Assembly (NCBI RefSeq): GCF_000385335.1
Contig: NZ_ARWA01000001.1
Location: 636,081 to 700,080, forward strand
Source of the DNA: Methyloferula stellata AR4
GTDB lineage: Bacteria > Pseudomonadota > Alphaproteobacteria > Rhizobiales > Beijerinckiaceae
DNA: 64,000 bases
Direction of reading: 5' to 3'
Below the pieces are notes generated by a model, which saw only the letters and a program-made list of their open reading frames with translations, had not been told where the DNA came from and did no database searches. How positions within the stretch are numbered: position 1 is the first letter of the stretch; every line of letters begins with the position of its first letter. The translations under genes and the position numbers were made by a program. Shown one piece after another: positions 9,026-58,770 of the stretch.

Positions 9026-9090
9026 TGCGTCGGACGTCCGTCAACGTCCGATTACGTCTGCGATGTTTTGGGATCAGGCTTTCTTCCATC

Positions 9091-9133
9091 GCATGATCTT
9101 ATCCGAAAAGTCTGCAACTTTTCGGGATCATGC
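9091..9133. repeat. Dispersed palindrome family A, copy 1 (secA end)
   Basis: The arms begin GCATGATC and end GATCATGC, with an inner stem CCGAAAAGT / ACTTTTCGG around TGCAG. It matches 58120-58163 at all but one or two positions. The secA stop codon (9128-9130, minus strand) lies inside it. It can form a hairpin in the mRNA tail. Confidence 0.8.
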
Positions 9134-11947
9134 TATCTGACCGTGGCAATGTTTGAACTTCTTGCCCGAACCGCACGGACATGGCTCGTTGCGGCCAACC
9201 TTGCCCCAGGTCGAGGGATCGTCAGCATCGCGCGATAGCGTCGCGACGCCGCCATTATCCTGCGCGGTCAAAGGCGGAAAATTTTGCGAGCCGTAATCCC
9301 GCGCCTCAGGCAATGCGCCTTGACCGACGAAAGCGGATTCGGGTGAGCCATCCATTGCCACCTGCATCGGCGGACCGGCATTGGCAGACGGCTCGAAGGC
9401 CACTTCGAGATGAGTCAATTGCGCCGTCGTTACTTCGCGCAAATGCGTGATCAATTCGTCGAAAAGCTCGAAAGCTTCCGACTTATATTCGTTCAAGGGA
9501 TCGCGCTGCGCGAGACCGCGCCAGCCGATCACCTGGCGCAGATGATCGAGCGTGACGAGATGTTCGCGCCATAGATGGTCGAGCACTTGCAGGACCACCT
9601 GCTTTTCGAAATAGCGCATCAGGTCGGGCGTATTTTTCTCGACCCTCGCCACATAGGATTCATCCGCGAGCTTCGTCAGGCGCTCATGCATCTCATCGTC
9701 GGTGATACCCTCTTCCTTGGCCCAATCGGCCAAAGGCAACACGAGATTGAGAGCCGAATCGATGCCTTTGGTCAGGCCTTCGATGTCCCAAGCTTCCGGG
9801 TAGGCATCGCGCGGAACATATTTCGTGACGAGATCTTCGACCACGCCGTGACGCATGTCGTCGATCATTTCTTCGAGCGAGTCCTGCGCCATCATTTCGC
9901 GGCGCTGCTCGAAGACGACCTTGCGCTGGTCGTTCATTACGTTGTCGTATTTCAAAATATTCTTGCGCATGTCGAAGTTGCGGGCTTCGACTTTCTGCTG
10001 CGCCTTTTCCAAGGCCTTGTTGATCCACGGATGGACGATCGCCTCGTCTTCCTGGAGGCCGAGCTTGACCAGCATGCCTTCCATCCGGTCGGATCCGAAG
10101 ATCCGCATCAGATCGTCCTTGAGCGACAGGAAGAATTTCGAGCGGCCCGGATCGCCCTGGCGGCCCGCGCGGCCGCGGAGCTGATTGTCGATGCGGCGGC
10201 TTTCGTGGCGTTCGGTACCGACGATATAAAGCCCGCCCGCGGCCTTGGCCTGCTCGCGGAAGGCTTCGACCTCGGCGCGGATCTCGGCTTCCTTGGCCTC
10301 GCGTTCCGGACCTTCGGGAATGCTCGCGCATTCCTGCAAGACACGCATTTCGACATTGCCGCCGAGCTGAATGTCGGTGCCGCGACCGGCCATATTGGTC
10401 GCCACCGTGATCGCGCCGGGCACGCCCGCTTCGGCAACGATATAGGCTTCCTGCTCGTGGAAGCGCGCATTCAACACCGTGAAGAATTTCGACGGTTTGC
10501 CGGCGCGGGCTGCCGCGTAAAGTTTCTGCAAGGCTTGCGGCTCGGTCACGTCGAGGAGCCTATAGCCCTGCTTCAGAAGAAACTCGCCAAGCTGTTCGGA
10601 TTTCTCGATCGAGGTCGTGCCAACGAGCATAGGCTGCATCTTCTCGCCGGCCGCTTCGATCTCGCGCACGATGGCGCGCAGCTTCTCTTCATGCGTGCGA
10701 TAGACTTCGTCGTCTTCGTCTTTGCGCTGCACCGGCCGATTGGTCGGGATTTCGACGACGTCGAGCTTGTAGATCTCGGCAAATTCATTGGCTTCGGTCG
10801 AAGCCGTGCCGGTCATACCCGCGAGTTTTTTGTAGAGACGGAAATAATTCTGGAAGGTGATCGAGGCGAGCGTCACATTCTCCGGCTGCACCTGGACATG
10901 TTCCTTCGCTTCCAGGGCCTGATGCAGGCCTTCGGAATAGCGGCGGCCCGGCATCATGCGGCCGGTGAATTCGTCGATGATTACCAATTCGCCGTTGCGG
11001 ACGATGTAATCCTTGTCGAGCTGAAACAGCTTATGCGCCCGCAACGCCTGGTTGACGTGATGAACCAGCGTCACATTGGCGGCCTCATAGAGCGAGCCTT
11101 CCGTCAACACGCCCACGTCGCGCAGCAATTCTTCCATATGCTCGTTGCCGACTTCGGTCAGATTGACCGACCGCTGCTTTTCGTCGAGATCGTAATCCTC
11201 GCGCGTCAGGCGCGGGATGATCACGTCGACGGCATTGTAGAGGTCGGACTTATCGTCCGATGGGCCGGAAATGATCAAAGGCGTGCGGGCTTCGTCGACG
11301 AGGATCGAATCGACCTCATCTACAATCGCGAAATTATGCCCGCGCTGCACCATCTGCCCGAGCTCATATTTCATATTGTCGCGCAGATAGTCGAAGCCGA
11401 ACTCGTTGTTCGTGCCATAGGTGATATCGGCGGCGTACCCCGCACGGCGCTCGTTATCGTCTATGCCGTGAACGATGATGCCGAACGAAAGTCCCAGGAA
11501 CTTATAGACCTGACCCATCCATTCGGCGTCGCGGCGGGCGAGGTAATCATTGACGGTGACGACATGCACGCCCTTGCCCGGCAGGGCATTGAGATAACAG
11601 GCGAGCGTCGCGACCAGCGTCTTGCCTTCGCCCGTCCGCATTTCGGCGATGGCACCTTCGTGCAAAACCATGCCGCCGATGAGCTGGACATCGAAATGGC
11701 GCTGGCCGAGCACGCGGCGCGCCGCTTCGCGCACAGTGGCAAAAGCCGGAACGAGCAGGTCGTCGAGGGCTGCGCCTTGCGCCAGCGCGTCGCGAAACAT
11801 TTGGGTGCGCCCGGCGAGCTCATCGTCCGAGAGTTTGAGCATCTCCGGTTCGAGCGCGTTGATGGCGGCGACTTTCGGCCTGTATCCCTTGAGGCGCCGG
11901 TCATTGGCCGAACCGAAAATCTTTTTGGCGAGCGTGCCTAACAACAT
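9128..11947 (-). CDS. secA: Preprotein translocase ATPase SecA
   Basis: SecA drives Sec-dependent export across the inner membrane. Start ATG 11947 ([13 protein letters not shown]) matches the family; the frame is open 13 codons further. It gives about 939 aa, a normal length. Visible motifs are Walker [14 protein letters not shown], the [15 protein letters not shown] helicase segment, [14 protein letters not shown], the [10 protein letters not shown] motif VI, and a C-terminal zinc-binding SEC-C tail ([17 protein letters not shown]) that contacts SecB. secB lies at the far end of this window. The stop codon is supplied by a dispersed palindrome. Confidence 0.97.
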
Positions 11948-15875: not shown

Positions 15876-17681
15876 ATGACCACCCAGAAAATCGACGCGA
15901 TCCGCAACTTTTCCATCGTCGCCCATATCGACCATGGCAAATCGACCTTGGCCGACCGCCTGATCCAGGCGACAGGCACCGTCGCCGAGCGTGACATGGT
16001 CGAGCAGGTGCTCGATTCCATGGATATCGAGCGCGAGCGCGGCATCACCATCAAAGCCCAGACTGTGCGGCTCGACTATAAGGCGCAGGACGGCAAGACC
16101 TATATCCTGAACCTCATGGATACGCCCGGCCACGTCGACTTCGCTTATGAGGTCTCGCGGTCGCTTGCCGCCTGCGAGGGTTCGCTGCTGGTTGTCGACG
16201 CGAGCCAGGGCGTCGAGGCTCAGACGCTCGCCAATGTCTATCACGCGCTCGACGCCGGCCATGAGATCGTGCCGGTCTTGAACAAGATCGATCTGCCCGC
16301 CGCCGAGCCGGAGCGAATCAAGCAGCAGATCGAAGATGTCATCGGCATCGATGCGTCGGAGGCCGTTCTGATCTCGGCCAAGACCGGGCTCAATATCGAC
16401 CAGGTGCTGGAGGCGATCGTCCATCGCCTGCCGCCGCCGCAGGGCGACGCGACCGCGCCCTTGAAGGCGCTCCTCGTCGATTCCTGGTACGACGCCTATC
16501 TCGGCGTCGTCGTGCTCGTGCGGATCATCGACGGCTCGCTCAAGAAGCATCAGAAGATCAAGATGATGGGCACCGATGCCCATTATGAGGTGGATCGCGT
16601 CGGCATCTTCCGGCCGAAAATGATCGAGACCGCCGAGCTCGGCCCGGGCGAGATCGGCTATATCACGGCTCAGATCAAGCAGGTCGCCGATACGCGCGTC
16701 GGTGATACGATCACCGACGAGAAAAAGCCCTGCACTGAGGCATTGCCCGGCTTCAAGCCGGCGCAGCCGGTCGTCTTCTGCGGATTGTTTCCGGTCGATG
16801 CCGCCGATTTCGAGGATCTGCGCGCCGCCATCGGGCGGCTGCGCCTCAACGACGCGAGCTTTTCCTATGAGATGGAGAGTTCGGCCGCGCTCGGCTTTGG
16901 CTTTCGCTGCGGCTTTCTCGGCCTCCTCCATCTCGAAATCATCCAGGAGCGGCTGGCGCGTGAGTTCAATCTCGACCTCATCGCGACGGCGCCATCGGTC
17001 GTCTACAAGATCATCCTGCGCGACGGCACCACGCTCGAAATGCACAATCCGGCGGATATGCCCGACCCTTCTCGCATCGAGAAGATCGAGGAGCCCTGGA
17101 TCCGCGCGACGATCCTGACGCCGGACGATTATCTCGGTGCAGTCTTGAAGCTCTGTCAGGATAGGCGCGGCATTCAGGTCGATCTGAACTATGTCGGCAA
17201 GCGCGCCATGGCCGTCTACGACCTGCCGCTCAACGAAGTGGTGTTCGATTTCTACGACCGGCTGAAATCGATCTCCAAAGGCTATGCGAGCTTCGACTAT
17301 AATCTCACCGATCACCGCGAAGGCGATCTCGTGAAAATGTCGATCCTCGTCAATGCCGAGCCGGTCGATGCGCTTTCGATGCTCGTCCACAAAGACCGCG
17401 CCGAGGCCCGCGGCCGCGCCATGGTCGAGAAGCTGAAGGACCTGATCCCGCAGCACATGTTCCAGATCCCGATTCAGGCGGCGATCGGCGGCAAGGTCAT
17501 CGCGCGCGAAACGATCCGCGCCATGCGCAAGGACGTGACCGCCAAATGCTATGGCGGCGACGCGACCCGCAAGCGCAAGCTGTTGGAAAAGCAGAAGGCC
17601 GGCAAGAAGAAGATGCGGCAGTTCGGCAAGGTCGAAATCCCGCAGGAGGCTTTTATCGCGGCGCTGAAGATGGATGATTAG
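15876..17681 (+). CDS. lepA: Elongation factor 4 (LepA)
   Basis: EF4 is a translational GTPase acting on stalled or assembling ribosomes. ATG 15876 ([20 protein letters not shown]) is the family start, giving 601 aa. G motifs are [30 protein letters not shown] and NKIDLP. The C-terminal domain ends with [20 protein letters not shown] and [20 protein letters not shown], also standard. The last 70 bases of the gene reappear twice downstream (about 19067-19156 and 19873-19949), which suggests that this 3' end is an integration target. Confidence 0.97.
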
Positions 17682-19066: not shown

Positions 19067-19156
19067 GCGAGGAGAGATGCGCCAGTTGGGTAAGGCCGAA
19101 ATCCCCGCGGAAAGCCCTTATCGCGGCGATGAAGATGGATGATTGAGCATAAAGTA
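19067..19156. repeat. Degenerate lepA 3' end, copy 1
   Basis: Matches the lepA end (GATGCGCCAGTTGGGTAAGG compare GATGCGGCAGTTCGGCAAGG), carries a two-base insertion that breaks the lepA frame, and ends in the same GAAGATGGATGATT before TGA. Similarity continues past the stop (AGCATAAAGTA). It has no coding role. Confidence 0.75.
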
Positions 19157-19837: not shown

Positions 19838-19872
19838 TTGCGAAGATTCGATCTGAGGCATGGGAGAAGCCG

Positions 19873-19949
19873 AGTTCCGGCAAGGTCGAAATCCCGCAGG
19901 AGGCCTTTATCGCCGCTCTGAAGATGGATGATTGAGGGTGCGCTTAAAG
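19873..19949. repeat. lepA 3' end, copy 2
   Basis: GGCAAGGTCGAAATCCCGCA and the following AGGAGGC match lepA exactly. The next codons differ from lepA only at third positions (GCT to GCC, GCG to GCC, GCG to GCT), and the stop changes from TAG to TGA. Synonymous-only divergence implies this was once a working lepA terminus, probably the original end displaced by insertion. Confidence 0.75.
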
Positions 19950-20030
19950 TCTCAAACGCGTCATGGCCGGGAGAAGCTCTCGGCTATCCGCGTACGGCTA
20001 TAACGGTGCCCTGGCAGGGCCTATCAGATT

Positions 20031-20180
20031 TCACCATTCATCTGTCGGCGGAATTTTCGGCGAGGCGGATATGCTTTCGTCAAGGATGGCCCTTCGGGCC
20101 ACCGCCTTCGGCGGCGCATCGAAGATGCGTCCTTGACGAAAGCGATCCGCTCGCCATGCTCGCCACCAAGAGATGTATGG
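20031..20180. repeat. Cloverleaf-like repeat element, copy A
   Basis: The outer arms CCATTCATC / GATGTATGG enclose a long stem (left 20059-20086, right 20130-20155, including 14 paired bases GCTTTCGTCAAGGA). The stem closes three consecutive hairpins with no unpaired bases between them: 20087-20101 (TGGCCC-TTC-GGGCCA), 20102-20114 (CCGCC-TTC-GGCGG) and 20115-20129 (CGCATC-GAA-GATGCG). Copy B at 25830-26014 has the same plan. Confidence 0.75.
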
Positions 20181-20239
20181 CGGTCTTTGAATGAGGCTTG
20201 AGGCTAAGCGGATTCAGAGAATGAGGCGCATGCCTCTCA

Positions 20240-20364
20240 ACCGTCATGCGCGGTCCCCGGATCAAGTCCGGGGATGACCCGCGCATCCAGGAACGTGGGC
20301 CGTCGCGAGGCGCAATTCCCAACCATCTTCGCGTGGATGCCCGGCTCAAGGCCGGGCATGACGA
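20240..20364. repeat. Dispersed repeat family D, copy 1
   Basis: Paired hairpins: CCCCGGATCAAGTCCGGGG flanked by ATGCGCGG/CCGCGCAT, then GATGCCCGGCTCAAGGCCGG and GCATGACG. Related copies are at 26059-26175, 36755-36847 and (single hairpin) 41911-41942. It follows the cloverleaf element in the same order as at 26 kb. Confidence 0.8.
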
Positions 20365-23833: not shown

Positions 23834-23856
23834 TCAAGAGCTCCCCGCACCTACCG

Positions 23857-23964
23857 CCCTCACCCTGAGGAGCGCTCCGCAGGAGCGCGTCTCGAAGGGC
23901 GAGGGCTATCGAGCTCTTGGCCCATCCTTCGAGACGGCCCTTTCAGGGCCTCCTCAGGATGAGG
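23857..23964. repeat. Dispersed repeat family C, copy 1
   Basis: Two hairpins: CCCTGAGGAGCGCTCCGCAG with GAGCGCGTCTCGAAGGGCGA, then ATCCTTCGAGACGGCC with GGCCTCCTCAGGAT. Other copies are at 30589, 32881, 33460 and 33847. Confidence 0.8.
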
Positions 23965-24038
23965 GGCGTTCCGGGCGGCGGCGTCTTCAAGATCAAGAAA
24001 TCATGGCGCAGAGGAACCTGCGTGCCTAAATAGCCTCC

Positions 24039-25714: not shown

Positions 25715-25829
25715 CAATAACGCGCATCACGCCCGCCACCCTTAGTCACTAATTTCCTTTCGGAATCAGGGCGTGATTGCCTCGCGGCAAGCTTGTGGCG
25801 TTTGGCTCAAAATACCGAGCTCATCACAT

Positions 25830-26014
25830 TTCGCCATTCATCCAACGGCGGGCATTTTCGGCGAGGCGGATACGCTTTTGTCAATGATCGCTTCGCGACC
25901 GCCCAAGGCGGCGAGCCACGCAGATCAGTTTACGCAATCTGCGTAAACTTATCTGCGTTGCGATCATTGACCAAAGCGATCCGCTCGCCATGCTCGCCGC
26001 CAAGAGATGAATGG
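25830..26014. repeat. Cloverleaf-like repeat element, copy B
   Basis: The outer arms CCATTCATC / GATGAATGG enclose a stem with left arm from 25860 and right arm to 25989. The inner junction holds hairpins 25888-25898 (TCGC-TTC-GCGA), 25899-25911 (CCGCC-CAA-GGCGG) and a long arm 25919-25957 (CGCAGAT, then AGTTTACGCA / TGCGTAAACT). The architecture is that of copy A, with different sequence in the paired parts. An alternative pairing extends the main stem over the first hairpin. Confidence 0.72.
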
Positions 26015-26058
26015 CCCATCGTGAATAACAATGAAGCACATGCCTCTCAACCGTCATG

Positions 26059-26175
26059 CGCGGTACCCGGATCAAGTCCGGGCATGATCCGCGCATCCAG
26101 GAACGCGGTTCGGCACAAGGTGCCACTACCTTTGTCAGCGGTGCTTGGATGGCCGGGTCAAGCCCGGCCATGACG
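26059..26175. repeat. Dispersed repeat family D, copy 2
   Basis: TGCGCGGTACCCGGATCAAG pairs with TCCGGGCATGATCCGCGCA, then GATGGCCGGGTCAAGCCCGG and CCATGACGG. It lies directly after the cloverleaf element, as at 20.2 kb, and just before the holA stop (minus strand). Confidence 0.8.
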
Positions 26176-26187
26176 GCTGTGCTCTAC

Positions 26188-32831: not shown

Positions 32832-32880
32832 GCAGGGTAGAGGATGCAAGCCTCTCGAAGAATGGCCAAGAGCGCGACCG

Positions 32881-32927
32881 CCCTCGTCCTTCGAGACGGC
32901 GGCTTCGCCGCCTCCTCAGGATGAGGG
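32881..32927. repeat. Dispersed repeat family C, copy 3
   Basis: CGTCCTTCGAGACGGCGG and CTTCGCCGCCTCCTCAGGA: a single strong hairpin between the reductase gene and the DUF805 gene. Confidence 0.75.
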
Positions 32928-33020
32928 CTTTCTTGCCATATTACATTCCGCCGAGGTTGGTTGCCGCCATTCGGCGCCGCACATAAAGTCTCCATGGCTT
33001 CAATGTGAATCGGGCCAGTC

Positions 33021-33829: not shown

Positions 33830-33846
33830 CGCCGCCAGAGATAGAG

Positions 33847-33950
33847 CCCTCATCCTGAGGAGCTTGCGGAGCAAGCGTCTCGAAGGACGAGGGCGATACG
33901 CTCTTGGCTCATCCTTCGAGACGGCGGCTTCGCCGCCTCCTCAGGATGAA
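33847..33950. repeat. Dispersed repeat family C, copy 5 (mutS end)
   Basis: The full two-hairpin unit (CATCCTGAGGAGCTTGCGGA; CTCGAAGGACGAGGG; TCCTTCGAGACGGCGGC; TCCTCAGGATGA). Its last bases encode the final residues and stop codon of mutS on the minus strand. Confidence 0.8.
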
Positions 33951-36664
33951 GGTTTGCGCAGCCCCTTAAGCTTATAAAGCGCTTCCAACGCCTCTCTTGG
34001 GCTCAGCGCGTCGGGGTCGAGCGCATCGAGCGCGAGATTGAGAGGATCAGGCTTTGGCGCTGGCGCAGGCGGTTCCTCGCGCACGGCGAACAAAGGCAGA
34101 TCCGCCACGAGCCGCTCGACCGGCATATGCCGGTCGCCCGCTTCAAGTTCGGCCAGCAGAATTCTTGCGCGTTCGACGACAGCGCCCGGCAAGCCTGCGA
34201 GCTTTGCCACCTGAATGCCGTAGGAGCGATCCGCCGCGCCCGGCAAAATTTCATGCAGGAAGACCACCTCGCCGTTCCAATCGGCGACGCGCATGGTGAG
34301 ATTGGTGAGGCGTGGCAGCCGCTTTGCCAGATGCGTCAATTCGTGAAAATGCGTCGCGAAGATCGCCCGCGAGCGGTTCTTCTCGTGCAGATGTTCGATC
34401 ACGGCCCAGGCGATCGACAGACCGTCGAAGGTTGCCGTGCCGCGCCCGATCTCATCGAGGATCACCAACGAGTTCGCGGTCGCCTGATTGAGGATCGCCG
34501 CCGTTTCGACCATCTCGACCATGAAGGTCGAGCGGCCGCGCGCCAGATCGTCGGCCGCGCCCACACGGGAAAACAGCCGGTCGACGATGCCTATCTGCGC
34601 TTTCGAAGCAGGAACAAAAGCGCCCATTTGCGCGAGCACGGCGATCAACGCGTTTTGGCGGAGATAGGTCGATTTGCCAGCCATGTTCGGGCCGGTGATG
34701 ACGGCGATGCAGCCGCCCTGGCCGGACCCCGAGAGATCGCAATCATTGGCGACGAAGGCTTGGCCCGTAGCCGCAAGTGCCGCCTCGACGACGGGATGAC
34801 GCCCACCTTCGATCACGAAAGCCTGCGAAGCCTCAATGAGAGGACGCGTCCAATTTCGCGCGGACGCCAGCTCCGCCAGCGCGGTGGACACATCGATCGC
34901 AGCCAGCGCCGCCGCGAGATGTTTGATCGCAACCTCTTCCGCCAGTACAAGCGCCACGAGCCGGTCGAAGATCGAGAGCTCGACGGCGAGCGCCTCGTCG
35001 GCAGCGGACGCGATCTTGGCTTCAAGCGCGGCCAGTTCGCTTGTCGAAAAGCGCATGGCGTCGGGCATGGTCTGACGATGCACGAAAGTCGCGTTGAAGG
35101 GCGGCTGCAACAAGGCCTCGCCTTGCGTGCGCGGCACTTCGATGAAGAAGCCGAGAAAATGATTATGTTTGAGCTTGAGCTGCTTCGTCTGCGCCAATTC
35201 GCAATAACGCGCTTGCAGCGCTGCGATCACGCGGCGGCTTTCATCGCGCAGCGCGCGTTGTTCATCCAGCGTCGCCTCATAACCCGCGCGGATAAAATTG
35301 CCGTCGCGCCGCTGCAAGGGAAGCTCATCGGCCAAAGCCTCCGTCAAAGCCGCAGCGACTTTCAAATCGACATCCCCGCATGCCTTTGCGGCTGACGCCA
35401 GTTCATCCGGCAAATCGGGCTTCGACAAAATCTCTCGCGCTAAAACCTGCGCAGCCTCGAGCCCGTCGCGGAGCGCTGCCAGATCGCGCGGGCCGCCGCG
35501 TTGAAGCGCGATGCGCGACAGTGCGCGGGCCAAATCCGGCACGGATTTCAGCCTCAAGCGGACCGCCGCGCGGAAATCATCCGCACCCACAAAAAACGCG
35601 ACCGCATCGAGCCTTGCGTCGATCGCCTGCGTCCCGGTCAGAGGCGCCGCCAGCCGTTCGGCCAGCAAGCGGCTTCCCGCCGAGGTCAATGTGAGATCGA
35701 TTGCAGCCAGCAGCGAGCCCTCGCGTGCGCCGGCGAGCGTGCGGGTCAATTCGAGATTGGCTCTGGTCGCCGCGTCGATCTCCATATGCGTGGCGCGCGT
35801 AAGGCGTTGCGGTAGATCGAGCGCGGGCCGCGCCGCGAGCTGGGTGCGCTCGACATAGAAGATCGCAACCGCCGCCGCGGCGCGTTCGACATCTGAAAAT
35901 GCGCCAAGCCCATCGAGCGTGGCGAGCTTGAAATAATCCTTCAGGCGGCGTTCGGCATTTTGCGCCTCACCGACATCGCGGCCAAGCGGCGTCAAAGGCA
36001 CACGTAGATCGGCGAAGAGACGCGCCGCGCGGGGCATGGCACAAATTCTCTCAGGCGCGACGATCTCGGACGGATCGATGCGGCTGATCTCGGCGCCGAG
36101 CGAGGCGTCCATGACTTCCGTCACGCGAAAGGCGCCAGTCGAAATATCGACCGCCGCGAGGCCGAACATCACATTGCCTTCGCCATCCTCGGCACAGGCC
36201 AAAGCCAAAAGGCAATTGGGCCGGCCGGGATCGAGCAATCTTTCTTCGGTGATCGTGCCCGGCGTCACGAGCCGCACGACATCGCGCTTGACGACGGATT
36301 TGCCGCCGCGTTTTTTGGCTTCGGCCGGGTCTTCGATCTGTTCGCAGACCGCGACGCGATGGCCCTTGCCAATCAACCTCTGCAGATAATCGTCGGCGCG
36401 CTCGACCGGCACACCGCACATGGGGATATCCTCGCCCTTGTGCTTGCCGCGCTTCGTCAAAACGATGCCGAGCGCGCGGCTCGCGATCTCCGCATCCTCG
36501 AAGAAAAGCTCGTAGAAATCGCCCATGCGATAGAAGAGCAGACTGCCCGGATGCGCCGCCTTGATCTCGATATATTGCGCCATCATCGGCGACGGCTTGG
36601 CCGCCTCGGGCTCAAGCGGATCAGCAGGCGCGGAGGAAGGCGCGGAGGCACGGCTTTTTCGCAT
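33941..36664 (-). CDS. mutS: DNA mismatch repair protein MutS
   Basis: MutS recognises mismatches as a dimer and recruits MutL. The 907-aa protein has the mismatch-reading motif [14 protein letters not shown] (about residue 45), Walker [16 protein letters not shown], and [15 protein letters not shown]. The C-terminal dimerisation end is [20 protein letters not shown]. The last codons (KPSS, stop) are read from a dispersed repeat, so the natural end may have been altered slightly. It is monocistronic. Confidence 0.97.
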
Positions 36665-36754: not shown

Positions 36755-36847
36755 CGCGTCATGCGCGGACTTGATCCGCGCATCAGGCTCAGCCACAAAA
36801 AGCAAAGCGTTATGCTTGGATGCGCGGGTCAAGCCCGCGCATGACGG
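36755..36847. repeat. Dispersed repeat family D, copy 3
   Basis: CGTCATGCGCGGACTTGATC with CGCGCATCA, then GGATGCGCGGGTCAAGCCCG and GCGCATGACGG, between mutS and kup. Confidence 0.75.
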
Positions 36848-36856
36848 CTATTGTTT

Positions 36857-57965: not shown

Positions 57966-58119
57966 TTCGGAAACCTCATGCAGATCAGCCCGGCGCCTCA
58001 GCCCGCCAAGCTCGTATGCATCACAATCCCGAAAAGCGGCTCCGGTTCCGCCGCGCCCAGCTTTGAAGCGCGATCGCTTCAAGTTAAACCGCAATCGCGC
58101 TTTAAGCTTTTGTTTCGAC

Positions 58120-58163
58120 GCATGATCTTGATCCGAAAAGTCTGCAACTTTTCGGGATCATGC
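58120..58163. repeat. Dispersed palindrome family A, copy 2 (leuD end)
   Basis: GCATGATCTTGATCCGAAAA, the loop TCTGCAAC, then TTTTCGGGATCATGC. It ends one base before the leuD stop codon (58165-58167, minus strand). An extended shoulder (GCAATCGCGCTTTAAGC) precedes it. Confidence 0.8.
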
Positions 58164-58164
58164 T

Positions 58165-58770
58165 CTAGTGCCAGGGCCGGAGCGCGCGCGCCTTTTCCTC
58201 GAAATGCTCGATCTTTTTCGCCTTTTCCATCGTGAGGCCAATGTCGTCGAGGCCATTCAAAAGGCAATGTTTGCGGTGCGGATCGATGTCGAATTTGACG
58301 GTGCCGCCGTCCGGGCCGCGCACTTCCTGGGCCTCGAGATCGATGGTGAGCGTCGCATTGGCGCCGCGCTCGGCATCGTCCATCAGCTTGGCGAGATCCT
58401 CAGGCGAGACCTTGATCGGCAAGATCCCGTTCTTGAAGCAATTGTTGTAAAAAATATCCGCGAAACTCGTCGAGATCACGCAGCGGATGCCGAAATCGAG
58501 CAGAGCCCAAGGCGCGTGCTCGCGCGATGAGCCGCAGCCGAAATTATCGCCGGCGACAAGAACCTGCGCCTTGCGATAGGCCGGCTTGTTCAAGACGAAA
58601 TCCGGATTTTCCTTTCCGTCTTCCGTAAAGCGCATCTCGTGAAAGAGCCCAGCGCCAAGGCCCGTGCGCTTGATGGTTTTCAAATATTGCTTCGGGATGA
58701 TCATGTCGGTGTCGACATTGGTGATCTTCAGGGGCGCCGCAACGCCGGTCAGCGTCGTAAACTTGTCCAT
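58165..58770 (-). CDS. leuD: 3-isopropylmalate dehydratase small subunit
   Basis: LeuD pairs with LeuC to isomerise 2- to 3-isopropylmalate in leucine synthesis. ATG 58770 ([20 protein letters not shown]) has GGGAGAG upstream, giving 201 aa. The family motifs are [33 protein letters not shown] and [16 protein letters not shown]. leuC is not in the window. Confidence 0.96.

Follow-up and report, generated by a model that had tools for sequence, protein, structure and literature searches.

A dispersed cloverleaf-forming repeat with maintained pairing in Methyloferula stellata and other Alphaproteobacteria

Introduction

It is an old question what keeps palindromic repeats in bacterial genomes: a role as RNA, a role as duplex sites for proteins, a role as folded single-stranded DNA, or mutation only. 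It is raised again by a repeat present in two copies (A and B) in a stretch of 64,000 nucleotides of the genome of Methyloferula stellata AR4 (contig NZ_ARWA01000001.1, positions 636,081 to 700,080), here called the window. A preliminary description of both copies held that their fold, not their sequence, is kept, and suggested a structured RNA, a hairpin-type mobile element (MITE/REP-like) or a folded single-strand recombination substrate. What kind of element is this, and what keeps its fold? We compared the window's genome (G000, 100% complete) with that of its sister (G001, 78% complete) and with other genomes and plasmids, and lean towards a dispersed, non-autonomous REPIN/MITE-like DNA element of about 145-200 bp that acts as folded single-stranded DNA.

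Results

Structure of the two copies in the window

Sequence and folding place both copies where they had been described or slightly beyond (Table 1; the element bounds include the terminal TCA...TGA repeats). The element consists of three nested levels of inverted repeats, namely termini, outer arms and inner stem, around three short hairpins. Copies A and B have in common the terminal inverted repeats TCA...ATTCATC / GATGAAT...TGA (GATGTAT in A), which are imperfect (TCAGATTTCGCCATTCATC / GATGAATGGC..TGA) and of the MITE type. They also share outer arms that are asymmetric (GGCGAGGCGGAT.. / ..ATCCGCTCGCC) and an inner module whose closing pairs are GTCAA(G/T)GA / TC(C/A)TTGAC. The module stem is long, with the 8-bp core GTCAA(T/G)GA, and closes three adjacent hairpins.

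Table 1. Features of the two cloverleaf copies (window positions unless a contig is given)
Feature	Position	Strand	Remarks
Copy A, whole element	20024..20190	+	terminal TCAGATTTCACCATTCATC -> GATGTATGGCGGTCTTTGA
Copy A, 150-base core	G000:C1:656111-656260		match in DNA search
Copy A, inner module	20079..20137	+	stem GTCAAGGA/TCCTTGAC; covariance score 85.6 bits
Copy A, arms	arm 1 20087-20101, arm 2 20102-20114, arm 3 20115-20129		
Copy B, whole element	25824..26024	+	terminal TCACATTTCGCCATTCATC -> GATGAATGGCCCATCGTGA
Copy B, 185-base core	G000:C1:661910-662094		match in DNA search
Copy B, inner module, rearranged	25880..25971	+	GTCAATGA stem; covariance score 39.4 bits
Copy B, module parts	CCGCC arm 25899-25911		TCGC/GCGA arm (longer main stem competes), CCGCC arm, long-hairpin insert
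Copy B, 41-nt inserted hairpin	25918..25958	+	

The arms of copy A, TGGCCC-TTC-GGGCCA, CCGCC-TTC-GGCGG and CGCATC-GAA-GATGCG, follow one another with zero unpaired bases between them, as had been claimed, whether the sequence is folded as RNA or as DNA. The three-arm fold is clean in copy A, but copy B is rearranged: its minimum-energy fold (RNA and DNA) extends the main stem to GTCAATGATCGC/GCGATCATTGAC, and the first arm is given up because this longer stem takes its TCGC. Copy B also has the lowest covariance score of the 20 modules in G000. Both copies outfold every shuffle (n=200 each), with z = -8.3 for A and -14.3 for B. The paired differences between them, AAGGA/TCCTT versus AATGA/TCATT and TGGCCC/GGGCCA versus TCGC/GCGA, are present in the sequence as described.

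Pairing is maintained while the letters change

Pair counts and permutation of the arms give strong support to the view that the fold is kept rather than the sequence. In an alignment of 29 modules, with columns set by MAFFT and the structure hand-written from the arms visible in the sequences, 96.8% of 749 cells pair, against 82.7% in shuffles. Two-sided changes occur in 15 of 28 pairs, a number that none of 500 shuffles reaches, and 99 cells are changed on both sides compared with 25.8 in shuffles (0/500). Against these stand 3 cells changed on one side and 24 of the 749 that do not pair, 15 of the latter at the pair immediately outside GTCAA.

Independently of this alignment, the 22 bases flanking the module were compared in 36 rows from other genomes, where the two sides match with a score of 8.28 within copies and -3.04 between copies. 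None of 2000 permutations attains the observed value, in a set that includes some close relatives and one mis-bounded row (L064; also present in the G-U strand tests and left out of the fold counts below). A first permutation within G000 and G001 was negative (1968/2000 and 1523/2000 shuffles at or above the observed value), because the arms had not been oriented; with 37 oriented copies, two of which still look reversed, the match is 6.49 versus 4.78 and is reached in 0 of 5000 permutations. Two-sided stem changes are seen even at a single site common to both species (TCATACCT/AGGTATGA versus TCGTTCCT/AGGAACGA). Between genera it is the inner core that is conserved, whereas the outer stem varies and is still matched; within G000, termini and outer arms are conserved as well.

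Such a pattern could partly stem from palindrome-correcting template switching rather than from selection. Quasi-palindrome correction is a replication template switching at hairpins, and a functionless element might be kept palindromic if such switching copied arm onto arm and inverted inner segments. We regard this as a real if rather doubtful possibility. A copying process gives both changes of a pair in one step, which suits the great excess of two-sided over one-sided cells, and outer stems that differ between genera and are still matched agree with it. It does not as readily account for the recurrence across families of the GTCAA/TTGA core, a CCGC-type middle arm and the order of the three arms, a recurrence for which the search pattern is partly responsible.

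The predicted fold as DNA and as RNA

With DNA energies, the lowest-energy fold has three arms in 15 of 17 modules from G000, 10 of 11 from G001 and 33 of 35 from other genomes (opposite strand: 15, 9 and 30, respectively). With RNA energies the corresponding numbers are 15, 8 and 13 (opposite strand: 11, 6 and 11). The G000 set holds 17 of the 20 modules because the module pattern missed L034, L043 and L046, and the 35 modules from other genomes were obtained with an exact pattern in which stem core and middle arm are fixed. The predictions favour the three-arm fold as single-stranded DNA over RNA in modules from other genomes, a claim limited by a further set found by plasmid BLAST and covariance model, in which three arms form in 10 of 24 with DNA energies and 6 of 24 with RNA energies (other strand: 11 and 7).

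The loops point in the same direction. Triloops are GNA or the complement TNC in 76 of 105 cases and closed by C-G in 101; in a second set the share of GNA/TNC is 24 of 33, compared with 23 of 136 palindromes of the window that have a C-G-closed triloop. In DNA, GNA triloops have an unusually high stability, and their enrichment is a further observation against mutational palindrome keeping. Predicted pairs include 2.3-3.6% G-U (other strand 4.1-4.8%), against 9.3% (other strand 10.2%) in the small SRP RNA of relatives; loop counts and G-U percentages leave out inner modules longer than 65 nt. The two strands are alike in the modules and in the SRP control, which makes the strand comparison uninformative, and we use the overall G-U level only.

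These data bear on the suggestion of a structured RNA or 3' untranslated element (terminator, stabiliser or small RNA) expressed from intergenic DNA. The hairpins are very stable, and of 18 placed modules among the 20 in G000, nine lie between convergent genes, eight between co-directional ones and one between divergent ones (from a table of 20 rows, two of them repeated, with genes predicted by codon-position G+C only), an arrangement that suits 3' elements. Against an RNA speak the level of G-U pairs, about 6 of some 725 paired cells in the 29-module alignment and below SRP RNA among predicted pairs, a three-arm RNA fold that is less common outside G000, an orientation that is free, and the absence of terminator-like sites from copy B (two are listed, both outside it). 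No Rfam 15 covariance model matches the window at its gathering score; in six loci the only matches, to MIR4387, snoTBR2 and RtT, are below threshold, which we read as generic hairpin similarity. A structured RNA, one of the three original suggestions, is accordingly disfavoured, and we consider it quite improbable.

Size and distribution of the family

A covariance model built from 29 diverse modules finds 20 modules in G000, 23 in G001 and 29 in a further genome, G027, with 150 candidates scored per genome. These numbers are places, derived from 37, 38 and 47 hits, respectively, most places being matched on both strands. None of the 18 placed G000 modules lies wholly within a predicted gene, and two overlap a gene end by 4 and 19 bases. 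The repeat is small, dispersed, non-autonomous and mostly intergenic, as MITEs are, and no larger or autonomous copy is found among its BLAST matches (40 scored among 93 candidates).

Outside these genomes the distribution is patchy. A DNA search gave matches in 5 of 60 genomes including the window's own, of which two matched over a single short stretch, and the covariance model matches 16 of 397 genomes of the order (own included) in 13 of 142 genera. The exact pattern occurs in one of 385 sampled genomes of the class, again the window's own, and in 37 stretches of the genome collection: 30 in records labelled as alphaproteobacterial groups, four in unclassified proteobacteria and three in metagenome-assembled genomes labelled Acidobacteriota, Lachnotalea and Streptosporangiaceae. 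The Lachnotalea contig (L093) was judged a chance match and excluded from the module sets. Four further stretches lie on three viral contigs; the phage records searched hold no module match.

On plasmids, 45 records match one Rhodobacter copy at E <= 0.01. The 22 Agrobacterium pAt records among them share a 42-base match only, and the one examined (L161) forms no module. It is the sole exception among 14 plasmid loci (L152-L165), the other 13 of which have a stem-closed module, including those in Microvirga, Azospirillum, Skermanella, Sinorhizobium and Acidiphilium and on actinobacterial plasmids of 'Candidatus Mycobacterium methanotrophicum' and Nocardia. Plasmid-type copies (L152-L154, L158, L159, L163-L165) also have a tail like GGTCGGGACGGAGGGATGG..CGAACAAAGGGATGG to the right of the module, after the hairpin; this pair of near direct repeats is absent at the window's copies.

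Orientation states and exchange of parts

The termini of parvoviruses exist in flip and flop orientations. Two states are likewise found in the cloverleaf repeat, in which the inner module, relative to the outer arms, is reversed in 10 and the same in 7 of 17 G000 copies (B counted as the same), and reversed in 7 and the same in 4 of 11 G001 copies. Adding L034, L043 and L046, all 'same' by eye, brings the G000 ratio to 10:10. By reading of their arms, six copies of Methylocapsa S129 are likewise in both states, 4 versus 2.

Eight loci have flanks common to G000 and G001. At all five shared sites with intact modules in both species, alignment scores indicate that the inner segment, the outer segment or both are inverted: the inner module and not the outer arms at the site of copy B, the inner module at 607.5 kb and, by a small margin (66.5 vs 56), at 515.2 kb, the outer arms and not the inner module at 594.9 kb, and the whole element including its own terminal letters at 1964.0 kb. 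A truncated G001 module led to the exclusion of the 709-kb pair from this count; read by eye, the inner part of this module is inverted too and the outer arms are not. G001 retains a deletion derivative at 534.9 kb, and its aligned stretch at 1600.3 kb is free of the element. Template switching in a functionless palindrome would also leave inverted segments and deletion derivatives where the two species share a site.

Exchange between copies acts besides inversion, since the G001 module at the site of copy B is of the AAGGA type. Moreover, several copies have, in place of the arm 1 loop, a hairpin of about 40 nt that is near-identical to the 41-nt insert of copy B and that also serves as an arm in a dispersed composite repeat of unrelated kind (L050-L058), which implies that arms act as exchangeable parts. 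This composite repeat has the form TAGAGCGGGATGAG..ATCCCGCTCTA at most of its loci, its long arm being the hairpin inserted in the cloverleaf arm loops. We also considered whether the inner module inserts independently into outer arms and rejected this: of the 17 places with GTCAANGA...TCNTTGAC in G000, 16 belong to elements and one is unrelated sequence.

Insertion sites and candidate movers

An indication of mobility comes from an IS110 element in genome G606, in which all three copies carry the module at the 3' end of the transposase gene, while five aligned plasmid relatives are without it. In a wider IS110 search, copies in genome G814 have 81 bases where G606 has 260. The empty site outlined by these relatives, and the junction, are approximate because the relatives are only about 70-75% identical. 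Dispersed copies, with one in an insertion sequence whose aligned relatives lack the module, speak against mutational keeping and are in line with an element that moves. Empty sites and target duplications were sought at the eight loci shared by G000 and G001, with no clean case; the site of copy B is occupied in both, and the flanks of copy A have no unique match in G001.

No candidate for a mobiliser emerged. A RAYT/IS200-605 mover is rejected by the Y1_Tnp profile (PF01797), which has no match in G000 or, within its 78% completeness, in G001, and 6 matches in G027. The suggestion of a hairpin-type mobile element (MITE/REP-like) is supported for the kind of element, but G000 lacks the RAYT by which REP/REPIN systems are defined.

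Alternatively, a larger transposon, of the tyrosine-recombinase type or IS110, could have the module as its end or its target, and solitary copies would be remnants of it. Some plasmid loci suggest such a link. In Microvirga a module follows, at a distance of about 70 bp, a pair of tyrosine-recombinase genes, which we label Tn554-like from their sizes and from PMC3414803; in Skermanella the end of an annotated recombinase gene overlaps with a stretch resembling the module; and modules lie near IS110 genes in four loci (L153, L154, L163, L164) and, on plasmids, near other transposase genes too. Yet a motif search found no second module at the other end of the Microvirga unit, the module is missing from the aligned IS110 relatives, and the examined G000 copies are solitary and between genes. 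A catalytic-motif scan of the loci otherwise gave xerC at one shared site and a doubtful match in L060 only, and was not sensitive, as it missed the annotated Skermanella recombinases. With the Microvirga case and the weaker Skermanella case as its examples, to which others may be added, a tyrosine-recombinase transposon was set aside as the mover, and we think that an origin of the repeat from larger transposons is unlikely.

Discussion

Comparison with known repeats

We recognised no description of the cloverleaf repeat in the open-access literature, to which the search was mostly confined. One close likeness is to REPINs, which are doublets of REP sequences that form hairpins and are moved by RAYTs (PMC3116915). 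The cloverleaf repeat is like them short, extragenic, palindromic and dispersed, and further features match: compensatory changes in a paired spacer, a 'clover' fold that was proposed for REPINs, and a supposed movement as single strands. Unlike REPINs, it has three arms at a junction and a flip-flop inner module that is the conserved part across genera while the outer stem varies (within G000, termini and outer arms are conserved too), and Y1 transposase has no match in G000 or in the 78% complete G001.

CGTC-tagged REPs, as presented in PMC3733652, are likewise alphaproteobacterial, palindromic and without a known dedicated transposase, and a repeat that looks like one of them adjoins both window copies. 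They are, however, small hairpins carrying a CGTC tag, with 4-5 bases in the loop, whereas the cloverleaf repeat combines triloops with three arms and a stem tens of pairs long; in sequence and fold, A and B have neither the tag nor a single small hairpin. The CIR elements of Caulobacter and Brucella (about 110 bp) are also intergenic, alphaproteobacterial and folding, and consist of two arms on a linker, with unpaired ends and a GANTC site at a loop (PMC2229807). By contrast, the ends of the cloverleaf repeat pair, and no GANTC site is present in copy A or B. With the MITEs ERIC, RUP and Correia/NEMIS, as treated in PMC2229807, it shares small size, non-autonomy, intergenic position and terminal inverted repeats; it differs in its nested invertible levels and three-arm core, and the target duplication or TA ends of those MITEs are not shown for it. 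We file the cloverleaf repeat among the small palindromic mobile repeats, where it has the complete set of features of neither REPIN, CGTC REP, CIR nor MITE.

A likeness of another kind is found in the 3' overhangs of Streptomyces telomeres, which fold into adjacent hairpins from one DNA strand, are capped by GCA loops with sheared G-A pairs and resemble the 'rabbit ears' of parvoviruses (PMC4513846). The cloverleaf repeat shares C-G-closed GNA triloop hairpins with this type of folded end. Such folds terminate linear genomes and go with terminal or Rep proteins, whereas the cloverleaf repeat is internal in chromosomes and plasmids.

A possible mechanism

Among the three suggestions of the preliminary description, a folded single-strand recombination substrate fits best, its enzyme and reaction being putative. 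If the repeat acts as folded single-stranded DNA, a strand exposed by replication, conjugation or a supercoiled cruciform would fold into the cloverleaf, which a structure-specific enzyme of the host or of a mobile element, other than a Y1/RAYT of G000, might then copy or move. The nested inverted repeats may allow the inner module or the whole element to invert in place or to be exchanged with another copy, by recombination or by replication template switching. Such events would yield the flip-flop states and could help to keep the two arms matched.

A bolder and more tentative proposal, which we hold to be doubtful at present, is that of a distinct class of alphaproteobacterial mobile elements, with look-alikes on two actinobacterial plasmids, that are recognised as cloverleaves of single-stranded DNA, each a four-way junction on a GTCAA stem with three C(GNA)G mini-hairpins, and that are moved and inverted by a structure-specific enzyme. 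It would be a bacterial counterpart, in chromosomes and plasmids, of the parvovirus and Streptomyces telomere folds. If the fold is the substrate, this would point to an undiscovered structure-specific transposition or recombination enzyme other than RAYT. The family offers a test bed for the reasons why palindromic repeats are kept, with one module in many genomes, nearly no one-sided changes, a fold predicted to be preferred as DNA and differences of orientation at fixed sites.

Other repeats in the window

Several further repeats were observed. CGTC-starting palindromes that are separate from the element lie downstream of copy A (20242..20290) and of copy B (26053..26100), both with approximate ends; such palindromes, often in inverted doublets, occur at 20242-20364, 26053-26178 and 36757-36849 and resemble the CGTC-tagged REPs described in PMC3733652. 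The 3' end of a lepA-like gene (17607-17681, stop at 17681) is repeated twice downstream, just before copy A, at 19072-19146 and about 19861-19935, with identities of 61/74 and 66/73; these repeats resemble the attachment-type duplications that integrative elements leave. Another family of composite palindromes, of the type CCTCATCCT-GAGGAG-arm-CGTCTCGAAGGA, is found at 33835-33960, 32870-32940 and 23840-23970 and holds inner hairpins such as GGCGGC-TTC-GCCGCC. Finally, a hairpin repeat GCATGATC..CCGAAAAGTCTGCAACTTTTCGGGATCATGC is present at 9070-9160 and 58090-58190, with almost the same sequence in both places.
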